In this document: piece after piece, positions 12,658 through 57,563 of the stretch
Layout of the letters: every line of letters begins with the position of its first letter
How positions within the stretch are numbered: position 1 is the stretch's first letter
Source: Comamonadaceae bacterium ALPHA2B
Lineage (GTDB): Bacteria > Pseudomonadota > Gammaproteobacteria > Burkholderiales > Burkholderiaceae_C
Reading direction: 5' to 3'
Assembly (NCBI GenBank): GCA_005503065.1
Contig: SCOE01000030.1
Location: 1-64,000 of the forward strand
DNA: 64,000 nucleotides
Program-made: the position numbers and the translations under genes
The notes under the pieces: model-generated
What the model saw: the letters and a program-made list of their open reading frames with translations, nothing else
Databases searched by the model: none
What the model was told of the DNA's origin: nothing

Positions 12658-12671
12658 CTAACAAGCGTTAG
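12658..12671. promoter_or_regulatory. operator dyad CTAAC-AAGC-GTTAG (TetR/ACAD divergent promoter)
   Basis: A perfect 5+4+5 inverted repeat stands between the TetR gene (start 12640) and the ACAD gene (start 12722). It is the best copy, with the one at 56433, of a dyad found at promoters across the window. Position and symmetry fit a TetR dimer site controlling both directions. Confidence 0.65.
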
Positions 12672-12721
12672 GTCGATAAATTGTCGGCCGGCGCCTTTCT
12701 TCAGTCGCCCAAGTTGATGCC

Positions 12722-13858
12722 ATGCTGCAACGCCCGCTCTTCACCGCCGAGCACGACCTCTTCCGCGAGCAGGTCAGGCGCTTCTTCGACCGCGAGGTCA
12801 CGCCCCACCACGCGCGCTGGGAGGCCGAGGGCATCGTGCCGCGAGCCGTCTGGCGCGCGGCCGGCGAGGCCGGGCTGCTCTGCCCTGCCATCCCCGAGGC
12901 CTATGGCGGCGGCGGCGGCAGCCGGCTGCACAGCGCGGTGCTGATCGAGGAGGTGGCCCGCGCCGGCGCCAGCGGCATCGGCTTCGGGCTGCACTCGGAC
13001 ATCGTCGCCCCTTACATCCTGGCCTACGGCAACGAGGAGCAGAAGCGGCGCTGGCTGCCGCCGATGGCGCGTGGCGAGGTCATCGGCGCCATCGCGATGA
13101 CCGAGCCCGGCGCCGGCAGCGACCTGCAGGCGGTGCACACCACCGCGCTGCGAGACGGCGATGACTACCTCGTCAACGGCCAGAAGACCTTCATCACCAA
13201 CGGCCAGAACGCCGACCTCGTGATCGTGGTCGCCAAGACCGACCCGTCCGTCGGCGCCAAGGGCACCTCGCTGGTGCTGGTGGAGACCGACCGGGCCGGC
13301 TTCAAGCGCGGCCGCAACCTCGAGAAGATCGGCATGAAGGCGCAGGACACGTCGGAGCTGTTCTTCGACGGCGTGCGCGTGCCGGCCGCCAACATCCTCG
13401 GCGGCGAAGGCAAGGGCTTCGTCCTGCTGATGCAGGAGCTGGCCTGGGAGCGCATGCAGATCGCCATCGGCGCAGCCGCCGGCGCCGAGGCCGCGCTGCA
13501 GTGGACGCTGGACTACACCAAGGAGCGCAGGGCCTTCGGCCAGCGCATCATCGACTTCCAGCACAACCGTTTCCGCCTGGCCGAATGGAAGACGCAGGTG
13601 CAGGTGATGCGCGTCTTCGTCGATCGGCTGATGGACGAACTGCTGCACGGACAGCTCGACGCCGCGACCGCCGCCATGGCCAAGTACTGGACCACCGACC
13701 TGCACTGCCGGCTGCTCGACGACTGCCTGCAGATGTTCGGCGGCTTCGGCTACATGTGGGAGTACCCGATCGCGCGCGCCTATGCCGACGCCCGCGTCTC
13801 CCGCATCTACGGCGGCACGAACGAGATCATGAAGGAGATCGTCGGCCGCACGCTGTGA
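12722..13858 (+). CDS. acyl-CoA dehydrogenase, long-chain/isovaleryl type
   Basis: A 378-residue ACAD. The FAD loops read [14 protein letters not shown] near 121-134 and [10 protein letters not shown] near 160-169; the likely catalytic base is Glu243 in ELAWERM, placed as in isovaleryl- and long-chain-ACADs. [13 protein letters not shown] and [15 protein letters not shown] close the protein, with Gly rather than Glu at the medium-chain position, which supports the alternative base. It is the first gene of the rightward operon, about 50 bases after the island operator. Likely role: alpha,beta-dehydrogenation of an acyl-CoA with electrons passed to EtfAB. Confidence 0.9.
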
Positions 13859-13921
13859 CGCGCCGCGCGGCCGAAGCGCCGGTGGGCCGTCGTCCCACCC
13901 TCACCCCAACCCCATCAGCCC

Positions 13922-15130
13922 ATGACCGAAGCATTCATCTACGACGCCGTGCGCACCCCGCGCGGCAAGGGCCGCGCCTCCGGCGCGCTGCACGGCAGCA
14001 CGCCGATCCACCTGGCCGTCACCGCGCTGCAGGCGCTGCGCGATCGCAACCGGCTCGACACCGCGCTGGTCGACGACGTGATCCTCGGCTGTGTGGAGCC
14101 GGTCGGCGAACAGGGCGCCAACATCGCCCGCGTCGCGGCGCTGGTGGCCGGCTACGACGAGTCGGCGCCGGGGGTGCAGATCAACCGCTACTGCGCCTCG
14201 GGCCTGGAGGCCTGTAACATGGCCACGGCCAAGGTGATGTCGGGCCAGTCGCCGCTGGCCGTCGGCGGCGGCGTCGAGAGCATGAGCCGCGTGCCCATGG
14301 GCACCGGCGGCGGCGCCTGGCCGGCCGACCCGGCGGTGGCGCTGCCCACCTACTTCGTGCCGCAGGGCATCTCCGCCGACCTGATCGCGTCGCTGTACGG
14401 GCATTCGCGCGCCGATGTCGACGCCTATGCGCTGGAAAGCCAGCGCCGCGCCGCCGCCGCGTGGGCCGAGGGCCGCTTCGCGCGCTCGATCGTCCCGGTG
14501 TGCGACGTCAACGGCCTGGTGGTGCTGGACCGCGACGAACACATGCGCCCCGAGACCACGATCGAATCGCTGGCCAAGCTCGAACCCTCGTTCAAGCTCC
14601 AGGGCGAGCGTGCCGGCTTCGACGCGGTGGCGCTGCAGCGCTACCCGCAGCTCGAACGCATCGAACACGTGCACCACGCCGGCAACTCCTCGGGCATCGT
14701 CGACGGCGCTGCCGCCGTGCTGATCGGCAACGCCGAGGTCGGCCAGCGGCTGGGCCTGGAGCCGCGCGCGCGCATCCGCTCGTTCGCCTCCGTCGGCAGC
14801 GAGCCGACCATCATGCTCACCGGCCCGTCGTTCTCGGCCGAGAAGGCGCTCAAGCTCGCCGGCATGTCCTGCTCCGACATCGATCTGTTCGAGCTCAACG
14901 AGGCCTTCGCATCGGTGGTGCTGCGCTTCATGGAGGTGATGAACGTGCCGCACGCGCGCATGAACGTCAACGGCGGTGCCATCGCGATGGGCCATCCGCT
15001 GGGTGCCACCGGGGCCATGATCCTCGGCACCCTGCTCGACGAGCTCGAGCGCCGCAACCTTGCCACCGGGCTGGCCACGCTGTGCGTGGGCGCCGGCATG
15101 GGCACCGCCACCATCATCGAGCGCGTCTGA
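13922..15130 (+). CDS. acetyl-CoA C-acyltransferase (thiolase, FadA-type)
   Basis: A 402-residue degradative thiolase. The nucleophile Cys91 lies in [17 protein letters not shown] near 323 holds the active-site His region, [15 protein letters not shown] near 348-362 the second His, and CVGAGMG near 386 the proton-donor Cys. All catalytic residues are present, unlike the thiolase homologue at 34712-35884. It follows the first ACAD by 63 bases and precedes the FadB-type gene by 25, so together they make a complete beta-oxidation spiral: dehydrogenase, hydratase plus 3-hydroxyacyl-CoA dehydrogenase, thiolase. It should release acetyl-CoA (or propionyl-CoA) from 3-ketoacyl-CoA. Confidence 0.92.
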
Positions 15131-15155
15131 ACCGCGCCGATCGGGAATCCTCACC

Positions 15156-17291
15156 ATGAGCATCGACTACCAAGCAGGCGCCGACGGCATCGCCACATTG
15201 ACGTGGCAGATGAGCGATGCGCCGATGAACGTCCTCAACGCGGCCTCGATGGCCGCCTATGCGGCCGCGGTGCGGCGCGCCATCGCCGATCCCGCCGTCA
15301 AGGGCGTGATCGTCACCTCGGCCAAGCCGGAGTTCATCGCCGGCGGCGACCTGAACATGCTGCTGGCCTTCAGCGACGCGCAGGCCATGACCCGCTTCAC
15401 CGAAGAGCTGCACGCCCTGATGCGCGGCATCGAGAAGAGCGGCAAGCCCTTCGTCGCGGCGCTCAACGGCAGCGCGCTGGGCGGCGGCTACGAGGTGGCG
15501 CTGAGCTGCCACCGCCGCATCGCCGCCGACAACCCGAAGGCGCAGATCGGCCTGCCCGAGGTGGGCCTGGGCCTGCTGCCCGGCGGCGGCGGCACGCAGC
15601 GTCTGCCGCGGCTGATCGGCATCCGGCCCGCCCTGCCCTACCTGCTGGAAGGCAAGAAGGTCTCGCCGGCGCAGGCGTTGAAGGCCGGCATGGTGGACGA
15701 GGTCGTGCCGCCGGCCGAGCTGCTGGCGCGCGCACGCGCCTGGCTACTGGCGGCGAAGCCCGAGGACGCGGTGCAGCCCTGGGACCGCAAGGGATTCAAG
15801 CTTCCCGGCGGTCCGGTGCAAAGCCCCGCCGGATACGAGACCTTCACCGCCGGCAATGCGCTGCTGCGCGCCAGGACCTTCGGCAACTACCAGGCGCCCG
15901 AAGCGATCATGAGCTGCGTCTACAACGGCTGCCAGGTCGACATCGACACCGCCCTGAAGATCGAGGGGCGCGAGTTCGTCAAGCTCACCGTCGGCCCGGT
16001 GTCGAAGAACATGATCCGTACGCTGTTCTTCGGCATCGGCGAAGCCAACAAGCTCGCCGCCCGGCCCAAGGGCGTGCCGCCGGCCAGCTACCGCCGCGTC
16101 GGCATCCTCGGCGCCGGCATGATGGGTGCCGGCATCGCCTGCGCGGCGGCCGAGGCCGGGCTCGATGTGGTGCTGCTGGATACCACGTCCGAGCTCGCGG
16201 CGCGCGGCAAGGCCTATGGCGAGGCGCGCTGGGCCAAGCAGGCCGAGCAGGGCCGCCTGAGCGCCGAGAAATGCGCCGCGCTGGCGGCCCGCATTTGCCC
16301 CACGGCCGACTTCGCGGCGCTGGACGGCTGCGACATCGTGGTCGAGGCCGTGTTCGAGGACCGCGCCCTGAAGGCCGACGTGACCCGCAAGGCCGAGGCC
16401 CAGCTCGCGCCCGACGCCATCTTCGCCAGCAACACCTCGACGCTTCCCATCAGCGGCCTGGCGCAGGCCTCGGCGCGGCCGGCCAACTTCATCGGCCTGC
16501 ACTTCTTCTCGCCGGCCGAGAAGATGCCGCTGGTCGAGGTCATCGTCGGCAAGGCGACGAGCGAATCCTGCCTGGCCCGCGCGCTCGACTTCGTGAAGGC
16601 GCTGCACAAGACGCCCATCGTCGTGAACGACAGCCGAGGCTTCTACACCAGCCGCGTGTTCTCCACCTATGTCGGCGAAGGCCTGACGCTGCTGGCCGAA
16701 GGCGTGGCGCCGGCCTTGATCGAGAACGCCGGCCGCATGGCCGGCATGCCGGTGGGGCCGCTGGCCCTGGCCGACGAGGTCTCACTCGAACTGATGGCCC
16801 GCATCCGCCGCCAGACCGCCGCCGACCTGGGCTCGGCCTACCAGCGCAGCGCCATCGACGAGGTCTGCGAGCGCATGGTCGACAGCGCCCTCGGCCGCCT
16901 TGGCAAGAAGGCCGGCAAGGGCTTCTACGAGTATCCGCAGGGTGCCACCAAGCACCTGTGGTCCGGCCTGGCCGGCCTGTGGAAGCCGGCGTCGGTGCAG
17001 CCGGGCGTGGCCGAGGTCAAGCAGCGGCTGATGGCGATCCAGTCCATCGAAACCGTGCGCTGCCTCGAGGAAGCTGTGCTGCGAGCGCCGATCGACGCCG
17101 ACGTCGGCGCCATCCTCGGCTGGGGTTTCCCGGCCTACCTTGGCGGCCCGATCGGACAGATCCACAGCCGCGGCGTTGCTGCCTTCGTGGCCGACTGCGA
17201 CGAGTTGGCACGCCGCCACGGCCCGCGCTTCGAGCCGCCGAAGAGCCTGCGCGCGATGGCCGCCGAAGGCAAGACCTTCTTCGCGCGCTGA
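15156..17291 (+). CDS. bifunctional enoyl-CoA hydratase / 3-hydroxyacyl-CoA dehydrogenase (FadB/FadJ type)
   Basis: A 711-residue two-domain enzyme. The N-terminal crotonase domain (about 1-190) shows GSALGGGYEVALSCHRRIA and the Glu-bearing GLPEVGLGLLPGGGGTQRL, with both catalytic Glu present. The C-terminal dehydrogenase begins near residue 312 with VGILGAGMMGAG (NAD site) and continues with NTSTLPIS and FIGLHFFSPAEKMPLVEVI, the latter holding the catalytic His. The second half of the dehydrogenase follows (GKKAGKGFYEYP). ATG 15156 is chosen because MSIDYQ begins the family N-terminus. It hydrates 2-enoyl-CoA and oxidises the resulting L-3-hydroxyacyl-CoA, supplying the adjoining thiolase. 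Confidence 0.93.
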   Translation: MSIDYQAGADGIATLTWQMSDAPMNVLNAASMAAYAAAVRRAIADPAVKGVIVTSAKPEFIAGGDLNMLLAFSDAQAMTRFTEELHALMRGIEKSGKPFVAALNGSALGGGYEVALSCHRRIAADNPKAQIGLPEVGLGLLPGGGGTQRLPRLIGIRPALPYLLEGKKVSPAQALKAGMVDEVVPPAELLARARAWLLAAKPEDAVQPWDRKGFKLPGGPVQSPAGYETFTAGNALLRARTFGNYQAPEAIMSCVYNGCQVDIDTALKIEGREFVKLTVGPVSKNMIRTLFFGIGEANKLAARPKGVPPASYRRVGILGAGMMGAGIACAAAEAGLDVVLLDTTSELAARGKAYGEARWAKQAEQGRLSAEKCAALAARICPTADFAALDGCDIVVEAVFEDRALKADVTRKAEAQLAPDAIFASNTSTLPISGLAQASARPANFIGLHFFSPAEKMPLVEVIVGKATSESCLARALDFVKALHKTPIVVNDSRGFYTSRVFSTYVGEGLTLLAEGVAPALIENAGRMAGMPVGPLALADEVSLELMARIRRQTAADLGSAYQRSAIDEVCERMVDSALGRLGKKAGKGFYEYPQGATKHLWSGLAGLWKPASVQPGVAEVKQRLMAIQSIETVRCLEEAVLRAPIDADVGAILGWGFPAYLGGPIGQIHSRGVAAFVADCDELARRHGPRFEPPKSLRAMAAEGKTFFAR

Positions 17292-17346
17292 GGGCCCCAT
17301 CCGCGCGCTGTCCGCCCAACGCCCTCTTCGAGAAAACCAAGACCGC

Positions 17347-18966
17347 ATGTCCACCATCGAGTCCGCCATCGACCGGCAGTCCGAAGCCTTCCAGGCACAG
17401 CGCCAGCAGATGCTGGCCTTGATCGACAACTTCCGCGACCTGGAAGGTCGCGTGCGCGACACCTCCAACGCGATGGAGTCGCGCTTTCGCGAGCGCCGGC
17501 AACTGCTGCCGCGCGAACGCGTGTCGCTGCTGCTGGACCGCGGCTCGCCGTGGCTGGAGCTGTCCACGCTGGCCGGCCTGCGCCTGCACGACGACGACGG
17601 CGAGAAGAACGTGCTCGGCGGGGCGCTGATCACCGGCATCGGCATCGTCTCGGGCATCCGCTGCATGGTCATCGCCTCCGACAGCGCCATCAAGGGCGGC
17701 ACCATCACGCCGATGGGCATGCGCAAGAGCCTGCGCGCCGAGGCCATCGCGCTGGAGAACCGCCTGCCGGTGGTGCGGCTGGTCGAATCGGGAGGCGCCA
17801 ATCTGATGCACGTGGGCGAGGTGTTCATCGAAGGCGGCCGCGGCTTCGCCAACCAGGCGCGGCTGTCGGCCGCCGGCATTCCGCAGGTCACCGTGATGCA
17901 CGGCCACTCCACTGCCGGCGGCGCGTATCTGCCGGGCATGTCCGACTACGTGATCATGGTGCGCGGCCGCGCCAAGGCCTTCCTGGCCGGCCCACCGCTG
18001 CTGAAGGCGGCCACGGGCGAGATTGCCGGTGACGAGGAACTGGGCGGCGCCGAGATGCACACCCGGGTCTCCGGCGTGGCCGAGTACCTGGCCGAGGACG
18101 ATGCCGACGGCATCCGCATCGCGCGCGACGTGCTCGCGCGCATGCCGTGGAACGACAAGCCCGGCCAGGGCACCGGGCGCGGCTGGAAGCCGCCGCGCTA
18201 CGCCGCCGAGGAGATTGCCGGCCTGGTGCCGCCGGATTACCGCCAGCCCTACGACGTGCGCGAGTTGCTCGCGCGCCTGATCGATGATTCGGACTTCCTC
18301 GACTTCAAGCCCGAGTTCGGCGCCGCCACCGTGTGCGGACACGGCGCCATCGAGGGCCAGCCCTGCGGCTTCATCGGCAACAACGGCCCGATCGACCCGC
18401 AGGGCGCGAACAAGGCCACGCAGTTCATGCAGCTGTGCGAGCAGTCCGGCACGCCGCTGATCTACCTGCAGAACACCACCGGTTTCATGGTCGGCAAGGA
18501 GGTCGAGCAGGTCGGCATGATCAAGCACGGCGCGAAGATGATCCAGGCCGTCACCAACTGCAAGGTGCCGCGCATCACGCTGATGATCGGCGCCTCCTTT
18601 GGTGCCGGCAACTACGGCATGTGCGGGCGCGCCTACGACCCGCAGTTCGTCTTCGCGTGGCCCAACGCGCGCGTGGCGGTGATGGGCGGCGAGCAGGCGG
18701 CGATGGTGATGCGCATCGTCACCGAGGAGAAGATGGCGCGCGCCGGCAAGGCGCCGCCCGAGGACCTGCTCGAGGGCATGCGCTCCGAGATCCTGAAGCG
18801 CTTCGACATGGAGTCGCACTCGCTGTTCGCCACCGCGCGGCTGTGGGACGACGGCATCATCGACCCGCGCGACACGCGCGCCGTGCTGTCGCTGGCGCTG
18901 GCCGCGTGCCGCGAGGGCCGTGCCCGCAGCGTGCGGCCCAACAGCTTCGGCGTGGCGCGGATGTGA
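17347..18966 (+). CDS. acyl-CoA carboxylase, carboxyltransferase (beta) subunit
   Basis: A 539-residue carboxyltransferase of the methylcrotonyl/geranyl-CoA carboxylase group. ESGGANL near 148-154 and HSTAGGAYLPGM near 190-201 form the N-terminal acyl-CoA site; NTTGFMVG near 378-385 and GASFGAGNYGMCGRAYDP near 418-435 form the C-terminal carboxybiotin site. That last motif is typical of enzymes carboxylating beta-methyl-branched enoyl-CoAs. It pairs with the biotin-carrying alpha subunit starting 11 bases later. With an AtuA-family gene in the same operon, a geranyl-CoA-like substrate is possible, but the sequence alone cannot separate methylcrotonyl- from geranyl- or other branched enoyl-CoA specificity. 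Confidence 0.88.
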   Translation: MSTIESAIDRQSEAFQAQRQQMLALIDNFRDLEGRVRDTSNAMESRFRERRQLLPRERVSLLLDRGSPWLELSTLAGLRLHDDDGEKNVLGGALITGIGIVSGIRCMVIASDSAIKGGTITPMGMRKSLRAEAIALENRLPVVRLVESGGANLMHVGEVFIEGGRGFANQARLSAAGIPQVTVMHGHSTAGGAYLPGMSDYVIMVRGRAKAFLAGPPLLKAATGEIAGDEELGGAEMHTRVSGVAEYLAEDDADGIRIARDVLARMPWNDKPGQGTGRGWKPPRYAAEEIAGLVPPDYRQPYDVRELLARLIDDSDFLDFKPEFGAATVCGHGAIEGQPCGFIGNNGPIDPQGANKATQFMQLCEQSGTPLIYLQNTTGFMVGKEVEQVGMIKHGAKMIQAVTNCKVPRITLMIGASFGAGNYGMCGRAYDPQFVFAWPNARVAVMGGEQAAMVMRIVTEEKMARAGKAPPEDLLEGMRSEILKRFDMESHSLFATARLWDDGIIDPRDTRAVLSLALAACREGRARSVRPNSFGVARM

Positions 18967-18977: not shown

Positions 18978-20948
18978 ATGCGAACCTCCTTCCACAAGAT
19001 CCTCATCGCCAACCGCGGCGAGATCGCCTGCCGCGTCATGCGCACCGCCCGCGCGCAGGGTTACCGCACGGTGGCGGTGTACAGCGAGGCCGATGCCGGC
19101 GCGCTGCACGTTCAGCAGGCCGACGAGGCGCTGTGCATCGGCCCGGCGCCGGTGCGCGAGAGCTACCTCAGCATCGACGTCGTGCTGCGCGCCGCGGCCG
19201 CCAGCGGTGCCGACGCCATCCATCCCGGCTACGGCTTCCTGTCCGAAAACGCCGAGTTCGCGCGCGCCGTGCAGGCTGCCGGCCTGGTGTTCATCGGCCC
19301 CGATCCGCACTCGATCGAACAGATGGGCAACAAGGCCGCCGCCAAGCGGCTGATGCTCGCCGCCGGTGTGCCCTGCGTGCCGGGCTACCAGGGCAGCGAT
19401 CAGTCCGACGCCAACCTGCTGCGCCAGGCGCGCGAGATCGGCGCGCCGATCATGGTGAAGGCGGCGGCCGGCGGCGGCGGCCGCGGCATGCGGCTGGTGC
19501 ACGACCTGGCCGACCTGCCCGATGCGCTGGCACGCGCCCGCTCGGAGGCCGCGAACGCTTTCGGCTCTGACGAACTGATTCTGGAGCGCGCGGTGATCGA
19601 GCCGCGCCACGTCGAGGTGCAGGTCTTCGGCGACCGCCACGGCCACGTCATCCACCTCGGCGAGCGCGACTGCTCCGTGCAGCGGCGCCACCAGAAGGTG
19701 TTCGAGGAAGCGCCCTCACCGGCCGTCGATGCCGCGCTGCGCGAACGCATGGGCGCGGCGGCCGTCACCGCGGCGCGCGCAGTGGACTACGTCGGCGCCG
19801 GCACGGTGGAGTTCCTGCTCGACCGCGACGGCAACTTCTACTTCCTGGAGATGAACACGCGGCTGCAGGTCGAGCACCCGGTGACGGAATGCATCACCGG
19901 GCTCGACCTCGTGGCCTGGCAGCTCGCCGTGGCGCGCGGCGAGGCGCTGCCGCTGACGCAGGACGAGGTTCACCTCACCGGCCACGCCATCGAAGTGCGC
20001 CTGTATGCCGAAGACCCGGCCAGCGACTTCCTGCCGCAAAGCGGCGAGGTGGCGCTGTGGCAGCCGCCTGCGGGCAGCGGCGTGCGCGTCGACCACGGCC
20101 TGGCGCAGGGGCAGGCGGTCAGCCCCTTCTACGACCCGATGGTCGCCAAGATCATCGCCCACGGCGCCACGCGCGATGAAGCGCGGCGGCGCCTGGTCGG
20201 AGCGCTGGGCAACACCTGCGTGCTGGGCCTGCCCACCAACCTGCGCTTCCTCGCGGACGCGGCGGCGCACCCCGAGTTCGTGGCCGGCCAGGCGACCACC
20301 GCCTTCATCGGCAGGAACTTTCCCCCGGAGCGGCTGCGCGCAGCCGAGGCGAATTCGCGGGCGCTGGCGGTCGCCGCCGCCCTGTGGTTCGACGCCAGCG
20401 CGTACCGAGGCGCGCAGTTCGGCTTCCGCTCCAACGGGCCGGCGCGCTGGCCACTGGTGCTGGGCGCGGACGGGGACCGTGTCAACGCCCACGTCACCGT
20501 GCTCGGTGCCGGGCGGTTCCGCGTCGAGTGCCCCGCGGGTGCCGCACACGACATCGCCCTTCTCGGGCGCGACGCTGCCCACCATCGGCTGGCCATCGAC
20601 GGGCTGCACACGCAGGCCACGGCGGTGTTCGCCGGCGGCCGCCTGCATCTGGCGCTGGACGGCCAGACACGCAGTTTCGATGACCTCACCTACGCTCCGC
20701 CCCAGCGCGACGACGCCGCCGGCGAATCGAGCGTGCTGGCACCGATGAACGGCCGCCTGCTCGCCGTGTTGGTGTCGGCGGGCGACAGGGTGGTGAAGGG
20801 CCAGCGCGTCGCGGTCCTCGAGGCCATGAAGATGGAACACCAACTGCTGGCGCGTCGCGACGGCGTCGTCGAGCGTGTCGGTGCCGCGGTGGGCGAACAG
20901 CTGGCCACGCGCGCGCTGGTCGTGAAGCTGATCGAGGAAGCCGCTTGA
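18978..20948 (+). CDS. acyl-CoA carboxylase, biotin carboxylase/BCCP (alpha) subunit
   Basis: A 656-residue subunit. The biotin carboxylase begins KILIANRGEIACRVMRTA; the ATP-grasp region has KAAAGGGGRGMRLV near 160-173 and ERDCSVQRRHQKVFEEAPS near 230-248, and EMNTRLQVEHPVTE near 291-304 is the catalytic core. A linker domain follows, then a C-terminal biotinyl domain with the biotin Lys618 in EAMKMEH. The order BC-BT-BCCP and the length match MccA/AtuF-type alpha subunits. ATG 18978 sits a few bases after a GA-rich ribosome-binding stretch. It carboxylates its own biotin with ATP and bicarbonate and hands CO2 to the beta subunit. Confidence 0.92.
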   Translation: MRTSFHKILIANRGEIACRVMRTARAQGYRTVAVYSEADAGALHVQQADEALCIGPAPVRESYLSIDVVLRAAAASGADAIHPGYGFLSENAEFARAVQAAGLVFIGPDPHSIEQMGNKAAAKRLMLAAGVPCVPGYQGSDQSDANLLRQAREIGAPIMVKAAAGGGGRGMRLVHDLADLPDALARARSEAANAFGSDELILERAVIEPRHVEVQVFGDRHGHVIHLGERDCSVQRRHQKVFEEAPSPAVDAALRERMGAAAVTAARAVDYVGAGTVEFLLDRDGNFYFLEMNTRLQVEHPVTECITGLDLVAWQLAVARGEALPLTQDEVHLTGHAIEVRLYAEDPASDFLPQSGEVALWQPPAGSGVRVDHGLAQGQAVSPFYDPMVAKIIAHGATRDEARRRLVGALGNTCVLGLPTNLRFLADAAAHPEFVAGQATTAFIGRNFPPERLRAAEANSRALAVAAALWFDASAYRGAQFGFRSNGPARWPLVLGADGDRVNAHVTVLGAGRFRVECPAGAAHDIALLGRDAAHHRLAIDGLHTQATAVFAGGRLHLALDGQTRSFDDLTYAPPQRDDAAGESSVLAPMNGRLLAVLVSAGDRVVKGQRVAVLEAMKMEHQLLARRDGVVERVGAAVGEQLATRALVVKLIEEAA

Positions 20949-27360: not shown

Positions 27361-27852
27361 TTGACCGATCAGCCCCCCCTTCCCCCCGCCGTCGTCGACG
27401 CCTTCTGGCAGCGCTGGGGCAGCAACACCTTCCTCAGCGCGCAGGGCCTGGAGCTGGAACTCGCCGGCGTGGGGCGTGCCGTCGTGCACCTGCGCAAGCC
27501 CACCGTGATGCAGCGCGGCGGCGGCGGCTCGGCCGACGTGATCAACGGCGGCGTCATCGCCTACATGTTCGACGCCGCGCTCGGCTGCGCCATCGCCTCG
27601 GCCAACCTGGCACGGCCCGAGATGCGCAGCATCGCGCCACACGAACTGCGCCAGTCGACCATCAACCTCGACATCACCTACGTCGATGCCGCCACCGGCC
27701 CGCGCTTCGAAGCCCATGGCCGGGTGGTGCGCTCGGGGCGCAGCGTGGCCTTTGCCGAAGGCGAGCTGCGCGACGGCCAGGGTCGCGTCTGCGCCACCGC
27801 CAAGGGCATCTGGCGCGTCATGTGGCCGCAACCGGACGGCGCCGGCCGCTGA
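27361..27852 (+). CDS. PaaI/hotdog-fold thioesterase
   Basis: A 163-residue single hotdog domain. VINGGVIAYMFDAALGCAI near residues 61-79 is the hotdog central helix (HGG-type motif with Asn in place of His), and STINLDITYVDAATG forms the core strands. Members hydrolyse acyl-CoA thioesters as a release valve for stalled CoA intermediates. The start is TTG at 27361, supported by AGGA eight bases upstream; the open frame extends 25 codons further but lacks family similarity there. It lies between the Nudix-MBL gene and the AtuA-like gene with short gaps. Confidence 0.78.
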   Translation: MTDQPPLPPAVVDAFWQRWGSNTFLSAQGLELELAGVGRAVVHLRKPTVMQRGGGGSADVINGGVIAYMFDAALGCAIASANLARPEMRSIAPHELRQSTINLDITYVDAATGPRFEAHGRVVRSGRSVAFAEGELRDGQGRVCATAKGIWRVMWPQPDGAGR

Positions 27853-27901
27853 AACGGCTGCGCACGCCCTCCAACAACCGCTCGCGAAAGGACCTATCGG
27901 C

Positions 27902-29683
27902 ATGAGCAAGGACACCCTGCGCATCGGCTGCGCCTCCGGCTTCTGGGGCGACACCGAGTTTTCCGCTGCACAACTGGTCGAGCACGGCGACATTGACGTG
28001 CTGGTCTTCGACTACCTGGCCGAGATCACGATGTCTCTGCTGATCCGCGCCCGTGCGAAAGATCCGGCGCAGGGCTACGCGCCGGACTTCGTCGCCACCA
28101 TGAAGCCCCTGATGAAGCAGTTGAAGGCGCGCGGCATCCAGGTGGTGGCCAATGCCGGCGGGGTGAACCCGTCGGCCTGCCGCGATGCGCTCGTCGCTGC
28201 GGCCGCGGCCGAGGGCGTGGACCTGAAGATCGCCGCCGTCCTCGGCGACGACCTGATGCCGCAAGTCGAGGCGCTGCGCGCGGCCGGCACGAAGGAGATG
28301 TTCTCCGGCGCAACTTTCCCCGCCAAGGTCATGAGCGCCAACGCCTACCTGGGCGCCTTCCCCATCGCCGCAGCGCTGTCCGCGGGCGCCGACATCGTGG
28401 TCACCGGACGCTGCGTGGACAGCGCGGTGACGCTGGCTCCGCTGATCGCGCGCTTCGGTTGGACCGCCGACGACCTGGACAAGCTGGCGCAAGGCAGCCT
28501 CGCCGGCCACCTGATCGAATGCGGCACGCAGGCCACCGGCGGCAACTACACCGATTGGGCCAGCGTGCCCGGCTGGGACGACATGGGCTTCCCGATCGCC
28601 GAGTGCAGCGCCGAAGGCGGCTTCGTCATCACCAAGCCGCCGGGCACCGGCGGGCTGGTGTGCCCCTCCACCGTGGGCGAGCAGATGCTCTACGAGATCG
28701 GCGACCCGCGCGCCTACATCCTGCCCGACGTGGTGTGCGACTTCACCGACGTCACGCTCACGCAGGTGGGGCCCGACCGCGTGGAAGTGCGCGGCGCGCG
28801 CGGGCTGCCGCCCACCGACCAGGCGAAGGTGAGCGTCACCTGTGCCGACGGCTTCCGCGCGATGAGCCTTTTCATGATCGGCGGCATCGACGCCGGCGCC
28901 AAGGCGCGCCGTGTCGGCGCTTCGATGCTGGCGCGCATGCGGCGCAAGTTCGCCGAGCGTGGCTGGCCCGACTTCACCGAGGCCTGCGTCGAAGCCATCG
29001 GCGCCGAGGATACCTACGGCCCTCATGGCCGAGTGTCCGCGCGCGAGGTGATGCTCAAGGTGGGCGTGCGCCACCCGTTGAAAGACGCGCTCGAGCTGTT
29101 CTCGCGCGAGGTCGCGCCGATGGCGCTGATGTCCGCGCCGGCGATCACCGGCTTCACCGGCGGGCGGCCGAAGGTGCAGCCCGTGGTGCGGCTCTTCTCC
29201 TGCCTCGTGCCGAAAGCGAAGCTCGCGGTGAGCATCGACATGGGTGCGCAGAAGGTCGCCGCGCCCGCGCTGGCCGGGGTGCCCTTCGACGCCGCGGCGC
29301 TGCGGGCGGTGGATGGCCCGCTGCCCGCCGCCGATGCCTTCGCCCGCGGCGCACGCAGCGTGCCGCTGGTGCAGCTGGCCTGGGGCCGCAGCGGCGACAA
29401 GGGCGACGCCGCCAACATCGGCATCATCGCCCGCAAGCCCGAATACCTGCCCTTCATCCGTGCCGCCATCACCGAGCAGGCAGTGGCGCGCTGGTTCGCG
29501 CACCTCGTGCACGGCGAGGTGCGCCGCTACGATCTGCCGGGCACGCACGCGCTCAACTTCACGCTGCAGGAAGCACTGGGCGGCGGCGGCATCGCCTCGG
29601 TGCGCATGGATCCGCAGGGCAAGGCCTATGCGCAGATGCTGCTCGACCATCCGGTGGAGATCCCCGCCGAACTTGCTCTCTGA
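27902..29683 (+). CDS. acyclic terpene utilisation AtuA-family protein
   Basis: A 593-residue protein of the AtuA family (DUF1446). The N-terminal domain (about 1-455) starts RIGCASGFWGDTE and contains VANAGGVNPSACRDAL near 80-95 and DIVVTGRCVDSAVTLAPLI near 164-182. The C-terminal domain (about 485-590) is the AtuA-like ferredoxin-fold region, with AWGRSGDKGDAANIGII near 496-512. AtuA is required for citronellol and geraniol growth in Pseudomonas but its reaction is not settled. Together with the carboxylase and AtuD-like ACAD in the same operon it argues for a terpenoid or beta-methyl-branched acid substrate. AtuG and AtuH were not seen. Confidence 0.82.
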   Translation: MSKDTLRIGCASGFWGDTEFSAAQLVEHGDIDVLVFDYLAEITMSLLIRARAKDPAQGYAPDFVATMKPLMKQLKARGIQVVANAGGVNPSACRDALVAAAAAEGVDLKIAAVLGDDLMPQVEALRAAGTKEMFSGATFPAKVMSANAYLGAFPIAAALSAGADIVVTGRCVDSAVTLAPLIARFGWTADDLDKLAQGSLAGHLIECGTQATGGNYTDWASVPGWDDMGFPIAECSAEGGFVITKPPGTGGLVCPSTVGEQMLYEIGDPRAYILPDVVCDFTDVTLTQVGPDRVEVRGARGLPPTDQAKVSVTCADGFRAMSLFMIGGIDAGAKARRVGASMLARMRRKFAERGWPDFTEACVEAIGAEDTYGPHGRVSAREVMLKVGVRHPLKDALELFSREVAPMALMSAPAITGFTGGRPKVQPVVRLFSCLVPKAKLAVSIDMGAQKVAAPALAGVPFDAAALRAVDGPLPAADAFARGARSVPLVQLAWGRSGDKGDAANIGIIARKPEYLPFIRAAITEQAVARWFAHLVHGEVRRYDLPGTHALNFTLQEALGGGGIASVRMDPQGKAYAQMLLDHPVEIPAELAL

Positions 29684-35916: not shown

Positions 35917-35930
35917 CAAACAAATGTTAG
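35917..35930. promoter_or_regulatory. operator dyad CAAAC-AAAT-GTTAG
   Basis: One base off the full dyad, this site lies in the 56-base gap between the divergent thiolase homologue (start 35884) and SDR (start 35941). Being so close to both starts, occupancy would block either transcript. Confidence 0.5.
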
Positions 35931-40028: not shown

Positions 40029-40042
40029 CGAACATTCGTTAG
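40029..40042. promoter_or_regulatory. operator dyad CGAAC-ATTC-GTTAG
   Basis: One mismatch from the full dyad, located 26 bases before the oxidoreductase start at 40069 and about 130 bases before the divergent transglutaminase-like gene. It should control the rightward operon, possibly both. Confidence 0.5.
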
Positions 40043-48756: not shown

Positions 48757-49734
48757 ATGGACCGTTCGCGTCGCCACTGCCTGCTCGGCGGCCTTGCCGC
48801 TGCGCTGCTGCCCCGGGCCGCTGGCGCGCAGGAAGCCGCCTATCCATCGCGCCCGCTGCGTTTCCTGGTCGGCTTCGCCCCCGGCGGGCCGGCTGACGGC
48901 GTGACGCGCCTGTTCGCGAGCCGCCTGCAGGCGCAGCTCGGCCAGACCGTCATCGTCGAGAACGTGCCGGGCGCCGGCAGCACGCTGGCCGTCGCGCGCT
49001 TGTCGAAGATGGCCGCCGACGGCTACGCGATCGGTTTTGCGCACACGGCGTCGCTCAGCATCGGGCCGAGCCTGTACAAGAGCGTCGGCTACGAACCACT
49101 CAAGGACCTCACGCCAGTGGCCAAGGTCTGCGACTACGTCAACGTGCTGGCGGTGCGCGCCGACAGCCCCTGGCGCTCGCTGGCCGACCTGCTCGCGGCC
49201 GCGCGTGCGCAGCCCGGCACGCTGAGCTACGGCTCGGCCGGCATCGGTTCGACCAACCACCTGAGCGGCGAACTGCTCGCGGCCAAGGCCGGCGTGAAGC
49301 TCACGCACGTGCCCTACCGCGGCACGGCGCTGGCGATCAACGACCTGATGGGCGGCGCCCTGCAGTTCGTCTTCGACGCGCCCAACAGCGCGGGGCCGCT
49401 GGCGGCCGCCGGCAAGCTGCGCCTGCTGGCCGCGACGGGGCGCAGCCGCCACAAACTCTACCCCGACCTGCCCGCCATCGCCGAGACCGTGCCCGAGTAT
49501 GAGTTTCGGGGCTGGATGGGCGTGGTGGCGCCGCCCGGGTTGCCGCCGGGCGTTCACCAACGGCTGACACGCGAACTGGAGTTGGCCGCCGCCGCGCCGG
49601 ACACGGGCAAGCGCCTCGCGGCGCTGGGCCTGGACGTGGCGTTCGCCGGGCCCCAGGAGATGACGCGGGTGATCGCCGCGGAGATCGCGTTGTGGGACCC
49701 GCTGACAAAGTCACTCAACCTCAGCGCGCAGTAG
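48757..49734 (+). CDS. TctC/Bug-family periplasmic solute-binding protein
   Basis: A 325-residue tripartite-tricarboxylate-transporter receptor. The N-terminus has SRRHCLLGGLAAALLPRAAG with a cleavage site after AGA near residue 24; the twin arginine hints at Tat export. The fold marker YPSRPLRFLVGFAPGGPAD near 29-47 and the later THVPYRGTALAINDLMGG near 186-203 are typical. Bug proteins bind small carboxylates and are numerous in Burkholderiales, often without a cognate TctAB membrane pair; none is seen here. It is the last gene of its operon and probably senses or captures the substrate acid. Confidence 0.87.
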   Translation: MDRSRRHCLLGGLAAALLPRAAGAQEAAYPSRPLRFLVGFAPGGPADGVTRLFASRLQAQLGQTVIVENVPGAGSTLAVARLSKMAADGYAIGFAHTASLSIGPSLYKSVGYEPLKDLTPVAKVCDYVNVLAVRADSPWRSLADLLAAARAQPGTLSYGSAGIGSTNHLSGELLAAKAGVKLTHVPYRGTALAINDLMGGALQFVFDAPNSAGPLAAAGKLRLLAATGRSRHKLYPDLPAIAETVPEYEFRGWMGVVAPPGLPPGVHQRLTRELELAAAAPDTGKRLAALGLDVAFAGPQEMTRVIAAEIALWDPLTKSLNLSAQ

Positions 49735-50653: not shown

Positions 50654-50667
50654 CTAACAACCGTTTG
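50654..50667. promoter_or_regulatory. operator dyad CTAAC-AACC-GTTTG with TATACT -10-like box
   Basis: This copy of the island dyad lies between the divergent hydratase (start 50599) and PrpD gene (start 50722). TATACT at 50670-50675 follows directly, a good -10 match for the rightward promoter, so a bound repressor would cover the RNA polymerase site. Confidence 0.55.
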
Positions 50668-53285: not shown

Positions 53286-54466
53286 CGCATCGCCCGGGCA
53301 TCGCGGCGGCCGTCATCGCCATGCTGGCGGCGCAGGCGCTGATGTCGGCCGCCACCGTGGCCCTGCCGGTGCTGGCGCCGAAGGCGGCTCCGGACCTCGG
53401 CGTGCCCGCGGCCTGGGTGGGGCTGTTCGTGGCGCTGGTGTACGGCAGCAGCATGGTGTGCGGCCTGGCCGGTGGCTCGCTGCTGCGGCGCTGGGGCGCC
53501 GTGCGGACCAGCCAGGTCAGCCTGCTGTGCGCTTGCGCCGCGCTGCTGCTGGTGGCGCTGCCCCATCCGCTGGCCACCGTGTCCGGCGCCCTGGTGCTGG
53601 GTCTCGGCTACGGTCCACTGAACCCGGCCAGTTCGCACCTGCTCGATCGCGTGGCACCACCGCAGCGGCGCGCCACGATCTTCTCGATCAAGCAGACCGG
53701 CGTGCCGCTCGGCGCGGTGCTGGCCGGCGCGCTGCTGCCCTCGCTGGCACTGGAGGCCGGCTGGCCGACGGCGGTGGCAGCGCTGGCCGCCGCCTGCGTC
53801 ATGCTCGCGGCGCTGCTGCAGCCGCTGCGCGCGGCGTTCGACGATGACCGGCAGCCGCGCGCCCCCGTGCGGCTCTCGGACCTGGCGCAACCGGCGAAGC
53901 ATGCATGGGCCGATCGCCCCGGCTGGCTGTTGGCCGCCAGTTCGTTCTGCTTCGCGGCGCTGCAATTGTGCCTGGGCACCTACCTGGTGACCTACCTCAC
54001 CAGCCAAATGGGCTACGACCTCGTGCTCGCCGGCCTGGTGCTCGCCGCAACGCAGGCCGCCGGGGTCGCCGGCCGCCTGGTGGCGGGCGCCCTGGCCGAC
54101 CGGCTGGGCGCCCGGCCCGTGATGGCGGGCATGGGCCTGTCGATGGCGGCCTGCGCGTTCGCCAGCGCAGGCGCCGCCGCGTGGCCGATGGCGGCCATGC
54201 TAGCGCTCTACATGCTGTTCGGCGCCAGCGCCATCGGCTGGAACGGCGTCTACCTGGCCGACGTGGCGCGGCGGGCACCGCCGGGCGGTGTGGGCACGGC
54301 CACGTCCGCGGCACTGGTCATCACCTTCGGCGGCGTGATGGCCGGCCCCGCGCTCTTCGGCGCACTACTCCAGCTGGGCCTCACCTATGGCACGGCCTTC
54401 ATGGTGATGGGGCTTCCCGCGCTGGTCTGCGGCCTGCGCCTTGCGCGGGCCGCGGTCAGGCGCTGA
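53282..54466 (+). CDS. MFS transporter
   Basis: A 394-residue major facilitator with about twelve hydrophobic segments. The loop between helices 2 and 3 reads GGSLLRRWGAVRTSQ, a degenerate form of the MFS signature, and the second-half equivalent is AGALADRLGARPVM. It starts at GTG 53282, overlapping the ACAD stop (GTGA), so it is coupled to the PrpD-ACAD unit and probably moves their substrate or product across the inner membrane. Its end overlaps the convergent monooxygenase gene by 11 bases. Confidence 0.85.
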   Translation: MTHRPGIAAAVIAMLAAQALMSAATVALPVLAPKAAPDLGVPAAWVGLFVALVYGSSMVCGLAGGSLLRRWGAVRTSQVSLLCACAALLLVALPHPLATVSGALVLGLGYGPLNPASSHLLDRVAPPQRRATIFSIKQTGVPLGAVLAGALLPSLALEAGWPTAVAALAAACVMLAALLQPLRAAFDDDRQPRAPVRLSDLAQPAKHAWADRPGWLLAASSFCFAALQLCLGTYLVTYLTSQMGYDLVLAGLVLAATQAAGVAGRLVAGALADRLGARPVMAGMGLSMAACAFASAGAAAWPMAAMLALYMLFGASAIGWNGVYLADVARRAPPGGVGTATSAALVITFGGVMAGPALFGALLQLGLTYGTAFMVMGLPALVCGLRLARAAVRR

Positions 54467-56375
54467 CGGGTGCCTGCCGCGTGCAGTGGAAGTCCGCCAG
54501 ATCGGCGTCGTGCGCCGCTTGCCAGTAGTCCACCAGCCGCCAGGGCAGCACCGTGAAGACACGGCCGTGGCGATTGCGGTAGTAGGTGGACATGCCGGGA
54601 TGCGACCAGATCAGCGTCTCGTGTTCGGCGTCGAAGCGGCGCTGGTAGTCGTCGAGCACCTGAGGCCGCACGTCGATCGCACCGACACCCTGCTCGGCCA
54701 TGCGCACCAGGCAGGAGGTGATGTAGCGCGCCTGGCACTCGGACTGGAAGGTGATGCTGCCGCCGTGGCCGGAGGAAGTGCCCGGCCCGATCATGCAGAA
54801 GAAGTTGGGGAATCCGGGCACCATCACGCCGAGGTAGGCGCGCAGGTCATCGTCACCCCAGGCCTGCGCCAGGCTGCGCCCGCCGCGACCGATGATGTTC
54901 AGCCGCGCCGCCATCTCGGTGAGCTTGAAGCCGGTGGCGTAGACGATCACGTCGGCCTCGCGCAGCGTTCCGTCGGCGGTTTCGATGCCGGCGCCGGCGA
55001 TGCGCCGGATCGGCTCGGTCACCAGTTCGACGCCGGGCTTCCTCAGCATGCGGTACCAGTCGTTGTCGAGCAGGATGCGCTTGCCGTAGGGCGGATAGTC
55101 CGGGATGCACTTGGCCAGCAGGTCGGGCCGGCCTTCCAATTCGGCGTGGATGAAGTCGGTCAGTTCGCGGCGGTGGCGGTCGTTGACTGCGTTGACGGCG
55201 CGCTGCGGGTGCGGCCAATCCGGGTCCTTTTTCAGCGTCTTGAGCAAACCGTCGCCGTAGCGCCAGAACATCGTGAAGCGGAACCACTCGGCGTAGTACG
55301 GCACGTGCGCCAGCAGCCACTGCGCCTCGGGCCCGATCGGATCACGATAACCGGGAATCGGGCGCGCCCATTGCGGCGAGCGCTGGTAGATGGCCAGCGA
55401 GCGCACCGTGTCGGCGATCTCCGGCGCGAGCTGCATCACGGTGGCGCCGGTGCCGATGATGGCCACGCGCCGGCCCTCGACCTTCAAGCCCTGGGGCCAG
55501 TTCGCCGAGTGGAAGCTCTCGCCCGCGAACGTGCCGGCGCCCTCGATGTGCGGCAGCTGCGGATCGCTCAGCTGGCCGATGGCGCTGACGAGGACGCGAG
55601 AGCGCAGCTCGCTGTCGCCTTCCGGCCCGCGCAGGCGCGCGACCCACTGCTGCGCCTCCTCGTCCCAGGTGGCGCCCATCAACTGGGTCGAAAGGCGGAT
55701 GTGCCATCGCAAGCCCACAGCCTCGACAACCTGCCGCAGGTACGCCAGCACTTCCTCGCGGCGCGAGAAGTGGCGCGGCCACAGGAAGCGAGGCCCGAAC
55801 GAGAATGAATAGGCGTGGTTGGGGGTATCGACCCCGCAGCCTGGATAGCGGTTGACGAACCACGCACCGCCCACGTCGCCGGCCTTCTCGACGATGGTGA
55901 ACGGCACCCCCAGCTCGATCAGGCTGGCGCCCAGGGCGATGCCACTGACGCCAGCGCCAACGATCAACACATGGTCATCTCGTCCCGCGGGGCGCGTCAC
56001 GCTCGCCGGCCAGCCGAGACGCCGCGGCACCAGCGCCATCTCTTCGCGCGTCAGGCGCGCGTACTCCGGCGGCACGCTCTCGCCCAGGCAGACGGACATC
56101 ATGCGTTGCATCAGCGTGTCGCCAGGGTCGTGGATGGCGGGCGGGGTGCCGACTGCAAGCATCTCCACCGCCGCCTGCCGGATGCGCTGCTGCACGTCCG
56201 GCGGCAGCCCCGCGGCCGGGTCAGCGACCAGGTTCACGTCGCGTCGCGGGCAGAACGGTGGTTCAAGCCAGCCCAGATCGCCGCTGGCGTGAACCAGCAC
56301 CATGAGCAGCACGCGCAGATCGGCAGCCGCCACGGCGCCTTCGAGCTGCTGATGGTCGATTCGTGCTCCGGTCAT
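54456..56375 (-). CDS. flavin-containing (Baeyer-Villiger-type) monooxygenase with N-terminal extension
   Basis: A 639-residue FAD/NADPH monooxygenase. FAD loop VGAGVSG is at 139-145, the BVMO fingerprint FAGESFHSANWP at 283-294, and the NADPH loop IIGTGATVMQ near 306-315. Its first 130 residues are a helical extension seen in some long BVMO-like proteins (such as steroid or cyclododecanone types). It may insert oxygen next to a carbonyl, turning a ketone into an ester, which the hydrolases here could open. The gene is divergent from the TctC gene across an operator at 56433. Confidence 0.87.
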   Translation of the reverse strand: MTGARIDHQQLEGAVAAADLRVLLMVLVHASGDLGWLEPPFCPRRDVNLVADPAAGLPPDVQQRIRQAAVEMLAVGTPPAIHDPGDTLMQRMMSVCLGESVPPEYARLTREEMALVPRRLGWPASVTRPAGRDDHVLIVGAGVSGIALGASLIELGVPFTIVEKAGDVGGAWFVNRYPGCGVDTPNHAYSFSFGPRFLWPRHFSRREEVLAYLRQVVEAVGLRWHIRLSTQLMGATWDEEAQQWVARLRGPEGDSELRSRVLVSAIGQLSDPQLPHIEGAGTFAGESFHSANWPQGLKVEGRRVAIIGTGATVMQLAPEIADTVRSLAIYQRSPQWARPIPGYRDPIGPEAQWLLAHVPYYAEWFRFTMFWRYGDGLLKTLKKDPDWPHPQRAVNAVNDRHRRELTDFIHAELEGRPDLLAKCIPDYPPYGKRILLDNDWYRMLRKPGVELVTEPIRRIAGAGIETADGTLREADVIVYATGFKLTEMAARLNIIGRGGRSLAQAWGDDDLRAYLGVMVPGFPNFFCMIGPGTSSGHGGSITFQSECQARYITSCLVRMAEQGVGAIDVRPQVLDDYQRRFDAEHETLIWSHPGMSTYYRNRHGRVFTVLPWRLVDYWQAAHDADLADFHCTRQAPVSA

Positions 56376-56432
56376 GGTGCTCCCAAGCCCCTTCGGTCAC
56401 GGTAGGTATGTGGCGGCACATTCTAATTCCAA

Positions 56433-56446
56433 CTAACAGCCGTTAG
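56433..56446. promoter_or_regulatory. operator dyad CTAAC-AGCC-GTTAG
   Basis: A perfect 5+4+5 dyad in the gap between the monooxygenase (start 56375) and the TctC gene (start 56541), one of the two best copies in the window. It should regulate both genes. Confidence 0.6.
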
Positions 56447-56540
56447 GACATTTCCGCATGGAGCTCCGCGCGCGCGCTCCGTACATTGCGCCGGCATGCG
56501 CCCGACGGTCGGCGCGGGTCGACTCCAGGAGCGGTCCACC

Positions 56541-57512
56541 ATGATCAGAGCCCTGCTCGCCTTCGTCGTTGCGCTGACGCTCGCCGGCCCGTCGCTCGCC
56601 CAGACGGCAGCCGTGAGCTACCCCAGCAAGCCGATCCGCTTCATCGTGCCCTACGCCCCGGGCGGCAGCACCAGCTACGTGGCGCGCCTGGTGGGCGCGA
56701 AGCTGACCGAGGCCTGGGGGCAGCAGGTGCTGATCGACAACAAGCCCGGCGCGAACACCGTCATCGGCACGGAGGCGCTGGCCAGGTCGGCGCCCGACGG
56801 CTACACCATCTCGCTGGCCGCCTCGACGCACGTGACGGTGCCGCACCTCGTGTCCAGCCTGCCCTTTGATGTGCTGCGCGACTTCACGCCGGTGGCGAAC
56901 CTGGTGACGACGCAGCTCGTGCTGGTGGTGCACCCGTCGGTGCCCGCATCCAATGTGTCGGAGTTCATCGCGCTGGCCAAGGCCAGGCCGAACGAGCTGA
57001 ACTTCGCGGCAGTGGGCACCGGCAGTTCGACCCACCTCGCCGGCGAGTACTTCAAGAGCGTGGCCGGGGTGAAGATGCAACATGTGCCGTACAAAGGTAC
57101 TGCGCCGGCTCTGACCGACCTGATCGGTGGCCAGATCCAGCTCAATTTCGACACGCCGGTGACCTCGATTCCGCACGTCAAGGCGGGGCGCCTGCGCGCC
57201 CTGGCGATCACCGGAACCAGGCGGCTTGCCACCCTGCCCGACGTGCCCACCTTCGCCGAGGCCGGGCTGCCGGCGTACGACTTCCAGCTCTGGTTCGGCG
57301 TGCTCGCGCCCGCGGGCACGCCGCGCCCGATCATCGAGAAGCTGTCGGCCGAGATCGCGCGCATCCTCGCCATGCCCGATGTGAAGCAGCAGTTGGCCGA
57401 GCAGGGCCTGGACACCGCGTACCGGCCATCGGCCGAATTCGATGCGCTGCTGCGGACCGACCACGAGCGCTTCGGCAAGCTCATCAGCTCGGCGGGCATC
57501 AAGATCGAGTAG
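56541..57512 (+). CDS. TctC/Bug-family periplasmic solute-binding protein (second)
   Basis: A 323-residue Bug receptor with a Sec signal MIRALLAFVVALTLAGPSLAQ, cleaved near residue 20. YPSKPIRFIVPYAPGGSTS near 27-45 and MQHVPYKGTAPALTDLIGG near 183-201 are the family's ligand loops. AGGAG lies about 12 bases before ATG 56541. It is a single-gene unit between the monooxygenase and the BadH/BadI operon and differs clearly from the receptor at 48757, so a different carboxylate may be bound. Confidence 0.88.
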   Translation: MIRALLAFVVALTLAGPSLAQTAAVSYPSKPIRFIVPYAPGGSTSYVARLVGAKLTEAWGQQVLIDNKPGANTVIGTEALARSAPDGYTISLAASTHVTVPHLVSSLPFDVLRDFTPVANLVTTQLVLVVHPSVPASNVSEFIALAKARPNELNFAAVGTGSSTHLAGEYFKSVAGVKMQHVPYKGTAPALTDLIGGQIQLNFDTPVTSIPHVKAGRLRALAITGTRRLATLPDVPTFAEAGLPAYDFQLWFGVLAPAGTPRPIIEKLSAEIARILAMPDVKQQLAEQGLDTAYRPSAEFDALLRTDHERFGKLISSAGIKIE

Positions 57513-57549
57513 CGCCCGGCCACTGGCCATTTCGTCAATGGACATTTCC

Positions 57550-57563
57550 CTACCAAGCGTTTG
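57550..57563. promoter_or_regulatory. operator dyad CTACC-AAGC-GTTTG with TATACT -10-like box
   Basis: This weaker copy lies 66 bases upstream of the BadH-like gene. An overlapping symmetry ACCAA-GCGT-TTGGT is centred two bases to the right. TATACT at 57569-57574 follows, mirroring the arrangement at 50654. It would control the badHI-liv operon. Confidence 0.5.

Follow-up and report, generated by a model that had tools for sequence, protein, structure and literature searches.

A 64,000-nucleotide stretch of the Comamonadaceae bacterium ALPHA2B genome (the window, which lies on contig C23 of this source genome, our G000, and in which genes were called with our own codon-usage script) carries a recurring dyad that an original prediction had read as CTAAC-N4-GTTAG and had taken to mark an island-wide regulon under one TetR repressor serving units with separate substrates. 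We find that this element, in the form CNAACRNNYGTTNG, is very probably the operator of a pair of paralogous repressors, TetR1 and TetR2, encoded on one mobile island of at least 240 kb that runs from C23 into contig C91, with isoprenoid or branched acyl-CoAs as the likely inducers. The island-wide motif, the dyad at the tetR-etfBA unit and the many transcription units under it all stand, while the single repressor and the separate substrates fare poorly. The dyad is real and conserved and a probable operator, and its regulon is probably larger than first claimed, with two repressors rather than one.

Distribution of the dyad in window, island and genome

All six dyads first read by eye, at 12658, 35917, 40029, 50654, 56433 and 57550, are present and lie in promoter gaps; two are perfect (12658, 56433), three depart from the consensus at one position (35917, 40029, 50654) and the last (57550) at two. 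The half-site proposed at 10222 belongs to a site that does exist, at 10216-10229, as a weak one that ranks twentieth in the matrix scan given below. Five of the six divergent gaps of C23 hold a site, the remaining gap being at the integrase edge. By count within the window alone, the dyad is mildly unusual: seven matches with at most two mismatches are found, against 3.6 +/- 1.8 in shuffled sequence, and 4 of 100 shuffles reach seven. A further two-mismatch match, at 49572, lies inside a gene. It is the placement in gaps, together with the genome-wide distribution, that makes the case strong.

Across the genome (6,000,488 bases in 91 contigs, about 70% GC), CTAAC-N4-GTTAG with at most one mismatch occurs at 16 distinct places, five on C23, eight on C91 and one each on C4, C28 and C66, so that 13 of the 16 fall on C23 or C91 (binomial P 3e-16, a value that includes the window sites from which the consensus came). 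Because the consensus was derived from the window, the fair test is provided by the other 11 places, eight of which fall on C91, a contig of 174,759 bases. The C28 place is inside a called gene, and those on C4 and C66 have no called gene start adjoining; a reversed control pattern is found at 55 places in the whole genome.

A position matrix was trained on the TetR1 and TetR2 promoters of other genomes; four 14-mers of this training set have a copy on the island and were then removed. Over the first 199 kb of the island, where 6% of bases are intergenic, 19 of its 20 best matches are intergenic (P 1e-22), and the same fraction is obtained over the whole 240 kb, where 7.9% of bases are intergenic. 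Two of the top 20 are a single place in two registers (C91:120145/120149), and the sole genic match, C91:3052, coincides in part with the start called for an acyl-CoA ligase gene. The six sites read by eye are all among the top 20, with 12658 the best match of all. At 14 bits or more there are 15 wholly intergenic sites, compared with a mean of 0.1 and a largest value of 2 in 300 mononucleotide shuffles and 300 runs of a dinucleotide model. Of the island's gaps, those between divergent genes hold a site in 10 of 17 cases, tandem gaps do so in 5 of 35 and convergent ones in none of 8. The reach of the motif over many transcription units is borne out by C91, which contributes 12 further sites of at least 14 bits extending about 133 kb into the contig; and the check on whether the motif is equally common inside genes or at unrelated promoters, made through the genome clustering, the intergenic placement and the shuffle controls, gave no refutation.

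Among 18 sites chosen by matrix score, a choice that itself favours the seeming invariance of positions, C1, A3, C5, G10, T12 and G14 never change and the pair 6/9 is always R/Y. Positions 2 and 13 are free rather than fixed as T/A, being complementary in 4 of the 18, and the motif is better written CNAACRNNYGTTNG than CTAAC-N4-GTTAG.

The two repressor genes and their orthologues

TetR1 is a TetR/AcrR protein by its domains (PF00440, E 1e-16; PF17932, E 2e-15), and the palindrome is present at the promoter of its own gene. A contig scan for TetR1 kept 80 homologue loci, seven of them at 58-67% identity; these seven belong to Burkholderiales, with hosts that include Extensimonas vulgaris, Hydrogenophaga aromaticivorans and Caenimonas sedimenti. 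The form C(T/A)AAC-N4-GTTAG stands upstream of tetR in all seven. With four new loci added, and three repeated loci counted once, the dyad is found upstream of the tetR1 orthologue in 11 of 11 distinct loci of other genomes, in each case with its outer base 31-75 bases from the matched tetR1 start. The claim that a dyad marks the promoter of a TetR gene coupled to etfBA is supported. This conservation leaves the link between TetR1 and the dyad well supported, and the palindrome at these promoters would be the repressor's operator.

The other 73 homologues kept, at 35-47% identity, carry AAC-N4-GTT within 300 bases upstream in four cases, one of them with the full consensus (locus L072), and AAGC-N4-GCTT within the same distance in 31. 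The recognition helix of the TetR1 clade reads (K/T)SGS(L/I)FYHF. Among the distant homologues the helix is (S/P)GSPFY(H/Y)F in 51 of 73, and AAGC-N4-GCTT accompanies 30 of these 51 versus 1 of the 22 others, a pairing which suggests that recognition helix and operator tend to change together. The sister group with AAGC-N4-GCTT upstream (L065, L070, L076 and 28 further loci), whose repeats resemble AtuR sites and 30 of whose 31 members have the (S/P)GSPFY(H/Y)F helix, may be FadP or LiuQ.

The second repressor gene, tetR2, lies on C91, with maoC and the gene for electron-transfer flavoprotein (ETF):quinone oxidoreductase (ETF-QO) downstream and an acyl-CoA dehydrogenase gene on its other side. 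Its product is assigned to the family by homology to TetR1 and by TetR-family NCBIfam models that score below cut-off, rather than by Pfam. The TetR gene of the window is therefore not the only one on the island. A search of 399 family genomes gave TetR1 (E<=1e-55) in seven and TetR2 (at least 73% identity) in the same seven plus two more, G094 and G330; perfect dyads occur in 7 of these 9 genomes versus 45 of the 390 others (Fisher P 1.3e-5). Conservation is less full at TetR2 than at TetR1: of nine orthologue loci outside G000 and its relative G005, five keep the strict consensus 5' of the gene and a sixth (G094) has a variant. A single repressor fits poorly with TetR2, which shares the island with TetR1, has a similar dyad at its gene and is conserved alongside TetR1.

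The refined consensus was searched in five of the eight other positive genomes, and the spread of its sites was assessed in four of these, G235, G094, G330 and G258; sites were counted without those of the form CGAAC...GTTCG and, in the first three genomes, also in full. In G235, of another genus, 14 of 19 sites other than CGAAC...GTTCG (16 of all 38) fall in a 286-kb interval that takes in TetR2 and has the TetR1 promoter as one end, and in G094, which has TetR2 only, 7 of 8 (7 of all 12) fall within 75 kb around TetR2; the limits of both intervals were drawn from the sites themselves, which makes their P values too good. In G330, with TetR2 and no TetR1 match, all three such sites (3 of all 10) lie within 23 kb beside TetR2.

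Proposed repression, alternatives and known systems

From these arrangements we infer binding, repression, ligand, substrate and the assignment of paralogues to sites. A ligand-free TetR dimer would occupy the dyad, which in several cases lies immediately 5' of a probable -10 box, and would block one or both divergent promoters, its own included. On accumulation of branched or isoprenoid acyl-CoAs, the likely ligand class, the repressor would release, with joint induction of β-oxidation, acyl-CoA carboxylases, ligases, transporters and the ETF electron chain. Behind the tetR1 dyad comes CTGCTACAGT, which would make a plausible extended -10, while the dyads at 50654 and 57550 have TATACT close downstream. 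Because the dyad is just 5' of a likely -10 at these three places, steric repression is likely, as for AtuR of Pseudomonas, whose repeats (AGCAAGCGCTTGG/CCAAGCGCTTGCT) are placed immediately upstream of the -10 in the available text of the source (PMC9973270).

Several observations weigh against an operator shared by TetR1 and TetR2. The promoter boxes are consensus guesses, and the best boxes are poor at some other sites. In seven of the 17 divergent island gaps no site reaches 14 bits; two of the seven adjoin C91:3052, which scores 16.1 bits but falls within the gene as called, and C91:21203, which scores 10.9 bits. The 45 genomes that hold a perfect dyad somewhere and no close orthologue mean that the pattern by itself does not single out these regulators. 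Conversely, G172 and G327, with both TetR1 and TetR2, have no perfect CTAAC-N4-GTTAG, the CAAAC form standing at their TetR1, and for three TetR2 orthologues from genus g159 the 1.5 kb retrieved to either side holds no match to the consensus. In G258, which has both TetR1 and TetR2 but no dyad at the latter, 13 consensus sites other than CGAAC...GTTCG are scattered, unclustered, over nine contigs. Locus L072 carries an AAC-N4-GTT dyad with the other clade's helix, SGSPFYHF. Finally, the R/Y filter and the exclusion of CGAAC...GTTCG are both post hoc, having been picked after the sites were seen: across the genome CDAACNNNNGTTHG is matched at 37 places (16 on the island), and once R/Y was added by eye 24 were left, 15 of them on the island and eight of the nine others reading CGAAC...GTTCG.

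That such dyads arise by chance in the AT-rich promoter gaps of a 70% GC genome would fit the window count, which shuffles occasionally reach. It is a vanishingly improbable account, rejected on the genome clustering, on the intergenic placement and on shuffled and dinucleotide-modelled intergenic sequence, which never yields more than two sites against the 15 observed; the dyad is, besides, conserved in orthologous promoters. It is unlikely that TetR1 alone binds all the dyads while TetR2 reads another sequence. The TetR1 dyad is indeed the better conserved, at 11 of 11 loci against five or six of nine for TetR2, but those five or six TetR2 loci have a dyad of their own, dyads adjoin TetR2 in G094 and G330, where no TetR1 reaches E<=1e-55, and the recognition helices resemble each other (KSGSLFYHF and KAGSIYYHF). 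A division of labour within the two-repressor reading, of which it is a version, seems possible if somewhat short of probable: TetR1 would prefer sites of the CTAAC-GCTT-GTTAG type and TetR2 those of a CGAAC-NNAC-GTTAGTTAG type, with little cross-talk. The TetR2-promoter sites of G000, G005, G420 (one copy), G427 and G235 do share CGAACNNACGTTAGTTAG, most TetR1-promoter sites share C(A/T)AACGCTTGTTAG, and the island sites 40029, C91:39931, C91:89934 and C91:94303 seem TetR2-like; most island sites, however, are intermediate, and the AAC-N4-GTT core is common to both types.

A regulator from outside the island, whether PsrA- or FadP-like or another TetR, is very unlikely to be what binds the dyads, given that 13 of 15 genomes of the genus lack the perfect motif, that the two with it are the two with both TetRs, and that the dyad accompanies TetR1 promoters across genera. 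What speaks for such a regulator, so far as the available part of the source goes, is that the Pseudomonas TetR protein PsrA has a site, C/GAAAC-N2-4-GTTTG/C, with the same AAC-N4-GTT core and governs etfBA and ETF-QO (PMC13104628). The same partial text shows PsrA to be like the present system in having a site at its own promoter and in controlling acyl-CoA dehydrogenase genes as well (PMC13104628). The outer bases of the dyad differ or vary here, and the sites here are clustered on an island. Against the NCBIfam PsrA model, which is that of Vibrio and the only one tested, TetR1 and TetR2 score 36 and 40 bits, with a cut-off of 300.

As read from sequence, then, the overall logic is PsrA-like, the proteins are far below the PsrA model, and the operators are unlike those of AtuR, KstR2 and BkaR. 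The motifs of KstR and KstR2 differ from each other. These mycobacterial proteins, in the part of their description available, resemble TetR1 and TetR2 as two TetR repressors of one large lipid-catabolic locus, with 14-bp palindromes in divergent gaps, but the KstR2 motif is AnCAAGnnCTTGnT, whereas both repressors here share one core (PMC3068626). BkaR, also mycobacterial, is, in the accessible text, an autoregulatory TetR of the accA1/accD1 operon whose sites contain GTTA...TAAC, with the half-sites in an order the reverse of that seen here, GTTA(N)T(N4)A(N)TAAC (PMC3920632). FadP and LiuQ are likewise described, in the portion available, as TetR regulators of fatty-acid and branched-chain degradation in Betaproteobacteria only, FadP also occurring in Comamonadaceae (PMC5343134). 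The AtuR sites given in the partial source, AtuR being compared by operator and not by protein sequence, are nearer to the sister clade's AAGC-N4-GCTT than to AAC-N4-GTT; within 300 bases upstream of the seven named TetR1 orthologues, no AGCAAGCGCTTGG-type repeat (AAGC-N4-GCTT) is found, AAC-N4-GTT standing there instead in all seven. The PA3973 motif, SAAGRNMTGAACG, as it appears in the available text, does not fit the dyad.

The island, its genes and their likely substrates

In G005, of the same genus, a single contig carries the counterparts of C23 and C91 directly joined, with an overlap of nine bases, C23:114-65898 and C91:1-174646 matching G005:C3:53632-294083, about 240 kb. Identity is 99.98-100% over every long stretch compared (C91 20.6-80.6 kb left out), with a short break near C91:108,480 and 113 bases unmatched at each outer contig end; the G000 contig ends break in this sequence without a G005 match, possibly an insertion element. 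The rpoB locus (4.7 kb) was taken as the core-genome yardstick because a 12-kb stretch of C66 intended for that role is not conserved in the genus; as a single core locus it is a thin one, and it is 93.5% identical between the two genomes. That the island is nearly identical and rpoB is not suggests a recent transfer, from one species to another, of at least 240 kb as one block. Among the 15 genomes of the genus, these two alone have both TetR genes, and they alone have the perfect motif. In G420, of another genus and with 8% contamination, three long stretches match at 97.4-98.6% and pieces around tetR1/etfBA at 82-91%.

The left edge of the window (569-4330) encodes an AAA ATPase, a phage-type integrase (1647-2969) and a KfrA_N-type plasmid protein (3227-4330), genes that hint at an origin in a plasmid or integrative element. 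A plasmid collection, from which records close to the window's genome may be excluded, held no record covering 80% of window positions 12000-36000 and no TetR1 match of at least 60% identity; scans of the window and of nine other pieces gave no tRNA gene.

Table 1. Dyad sites, regulator genes and selected catabolic genes (window coordinates unless prefixed C91; bits and ranks from the leave-out matrix scan)
Feature	Position	Strand	Setting and remarks
Operator 1, CTAACAAGCGTTAG	12658..12671		Between tetR1-etfBA (-) and acyl-CoA dehydrogenase/thiolase/FadJ-like/carboxylase/AtuA run (+); perfect dyad
Operator 2, CAAACAAATGTTAG	35917..35930		Divergent gap, thiolase-like (-) / short-chain dehydrogenase/reductase (SDR) (+); 1 mismatch
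Operator 3, CGAACATTCGTTAG	40029..40042		Gap, three-gene run (-) / NADH:flavin oxidoreductase run (+); 1 mismatch; TetR2-like flank GTTAGTT
Operator 4, CTAACAACCGTTTG	50654..50667		Gap, enoyl-CoA hydratase (-) / MmgE-PrpD family (+); 1 mismatch; TATACT 2 bases downstream
Operator 5, CTAACAGCCGTTAG	56433..56446		Gap, FMO-like (-) / TctC receptor (+); perfect dyad
Operator 6, CTACCAAGCGTTTG	57550..57563		5' of SDR/enoyl-CoA hydratase/branched-chain-type ATP-binding cassette (ABC) transporter/acyl-CoA ligase run (+); 2 mismatches; 13.7 bits, rank 18; TATACT 5 bases downstream
Weak seventh site, AATAAACGTTAG half	10216..10229		Between etfA and acyl-CoA dehydrogenase gene 9016-10176; 13.0 bits, rank 20
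etfA	10279..11220	-	ETF domain and ETF_alpha (domain scan on longer reading 10279-11979)
etfB-like	11223..11972	-	ETF domain protein; overlaps tetR1 end by 4 bases
tetR1	11969..12640	-	223 aa; TetR_N and TetR_C_24; recognition helix KSGSLFYHF
Carboxyltransferase	17347..18966	+	Nearest in PDB geranyl-CoA carboxylase beta (5ikl, 742 bits); next methylcrotonyl-CoA carboxylase (545)
Biotin carboxylase with biotin carrier domain	18978..20948	+	Likely alpha subunit of the 17347..18966 carboxylase
AtuA family protein	27902..29683	+	By Pfam (scanned as longer reading 27686-29683)
tetR2	C91:94399-95022		Product 36% identical to TetR1; CGAACAGACGTTAG upstream; recognition helix KAGSIYYHF

The run to the right of 12658 comprises 13 genes, among them those for acyl-CoA dehydrogenases, a thiolase, a FadJ-like protein, the carboxyltransferase, the biotin carboxylase and AtuA. 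A geranyl-CoA-carboxylase-beta-like protein and AtuA thus stand in one gene run, as in an Atu operon, by nearest PDB relative and Pfam only; the AtuA protein itself had no match in PDB or NCBIfam searches. Behind the operator at C91:89934 is a gene for a carboxyltransferase that comes closest to AccD1 (615 bits) and methylcrotonyl-CoA carboxylase (601), and beside other sites are genes for acyl-CoA ligases, SDRs, enoyl-CoA hydratases, TctC receptors and branched-chain-type ABC transporters. Since a geranyl-CoA-carboxylase-like enzyme and AtuA share the leading run, the regulon is likely one of acyclic-isoprenoid or branched acyl-CoA catabolism. The separate substrates of the original prediction are doubtful, because the geranyl-CoA- and methylcrotonyl/propionyl-CoA-carboxylase-like genes, AtuA and the β-oxidation genes fit one branched or isoprenoid acyl-CoA programme.

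We tentatively propose that the island is a self-contained, transferable regulon, in which two paralogues using the same operator, TetR1 beside etfBA and the geranyl-CoA-carboxylase run and TetR2 beside ETF-QO, would integrate what are probably different acyl-CoA signals and would work on arrival in a new host. Limited topic searches of the literature returned no prior description of this regulon. A motif read by eye has become a testable regulon of about 18 operators, conserved, on a mobile island, with two repressors and a likely substrate class; it offers a natural paralogue pair for asking how TetR repressors share or divide one operator. The correspondence of helix and operator, in which KSGSLFYHF-like helices go with AAC-N4-GTT and SGSPFYHF-like ones frequently with AAGC-N4-GCTT, apart from one exception, may help to predict TetR specificity.

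Two operators, at C91:105714 and 105881, lie 167 bp apart 5' of a branched-chain-type ABC/ligase run, and G235 likewise has a pair of sites 116 bp apart (C1:776710/776826). The right part of the island, C91:134298-149690, with Rieske oxygenases, an amidohydrolase, a glyoxalase-type dioxygenase, a thiolase-like gene and no site of at least 14 bits, is perhaps a separate aromatic module.

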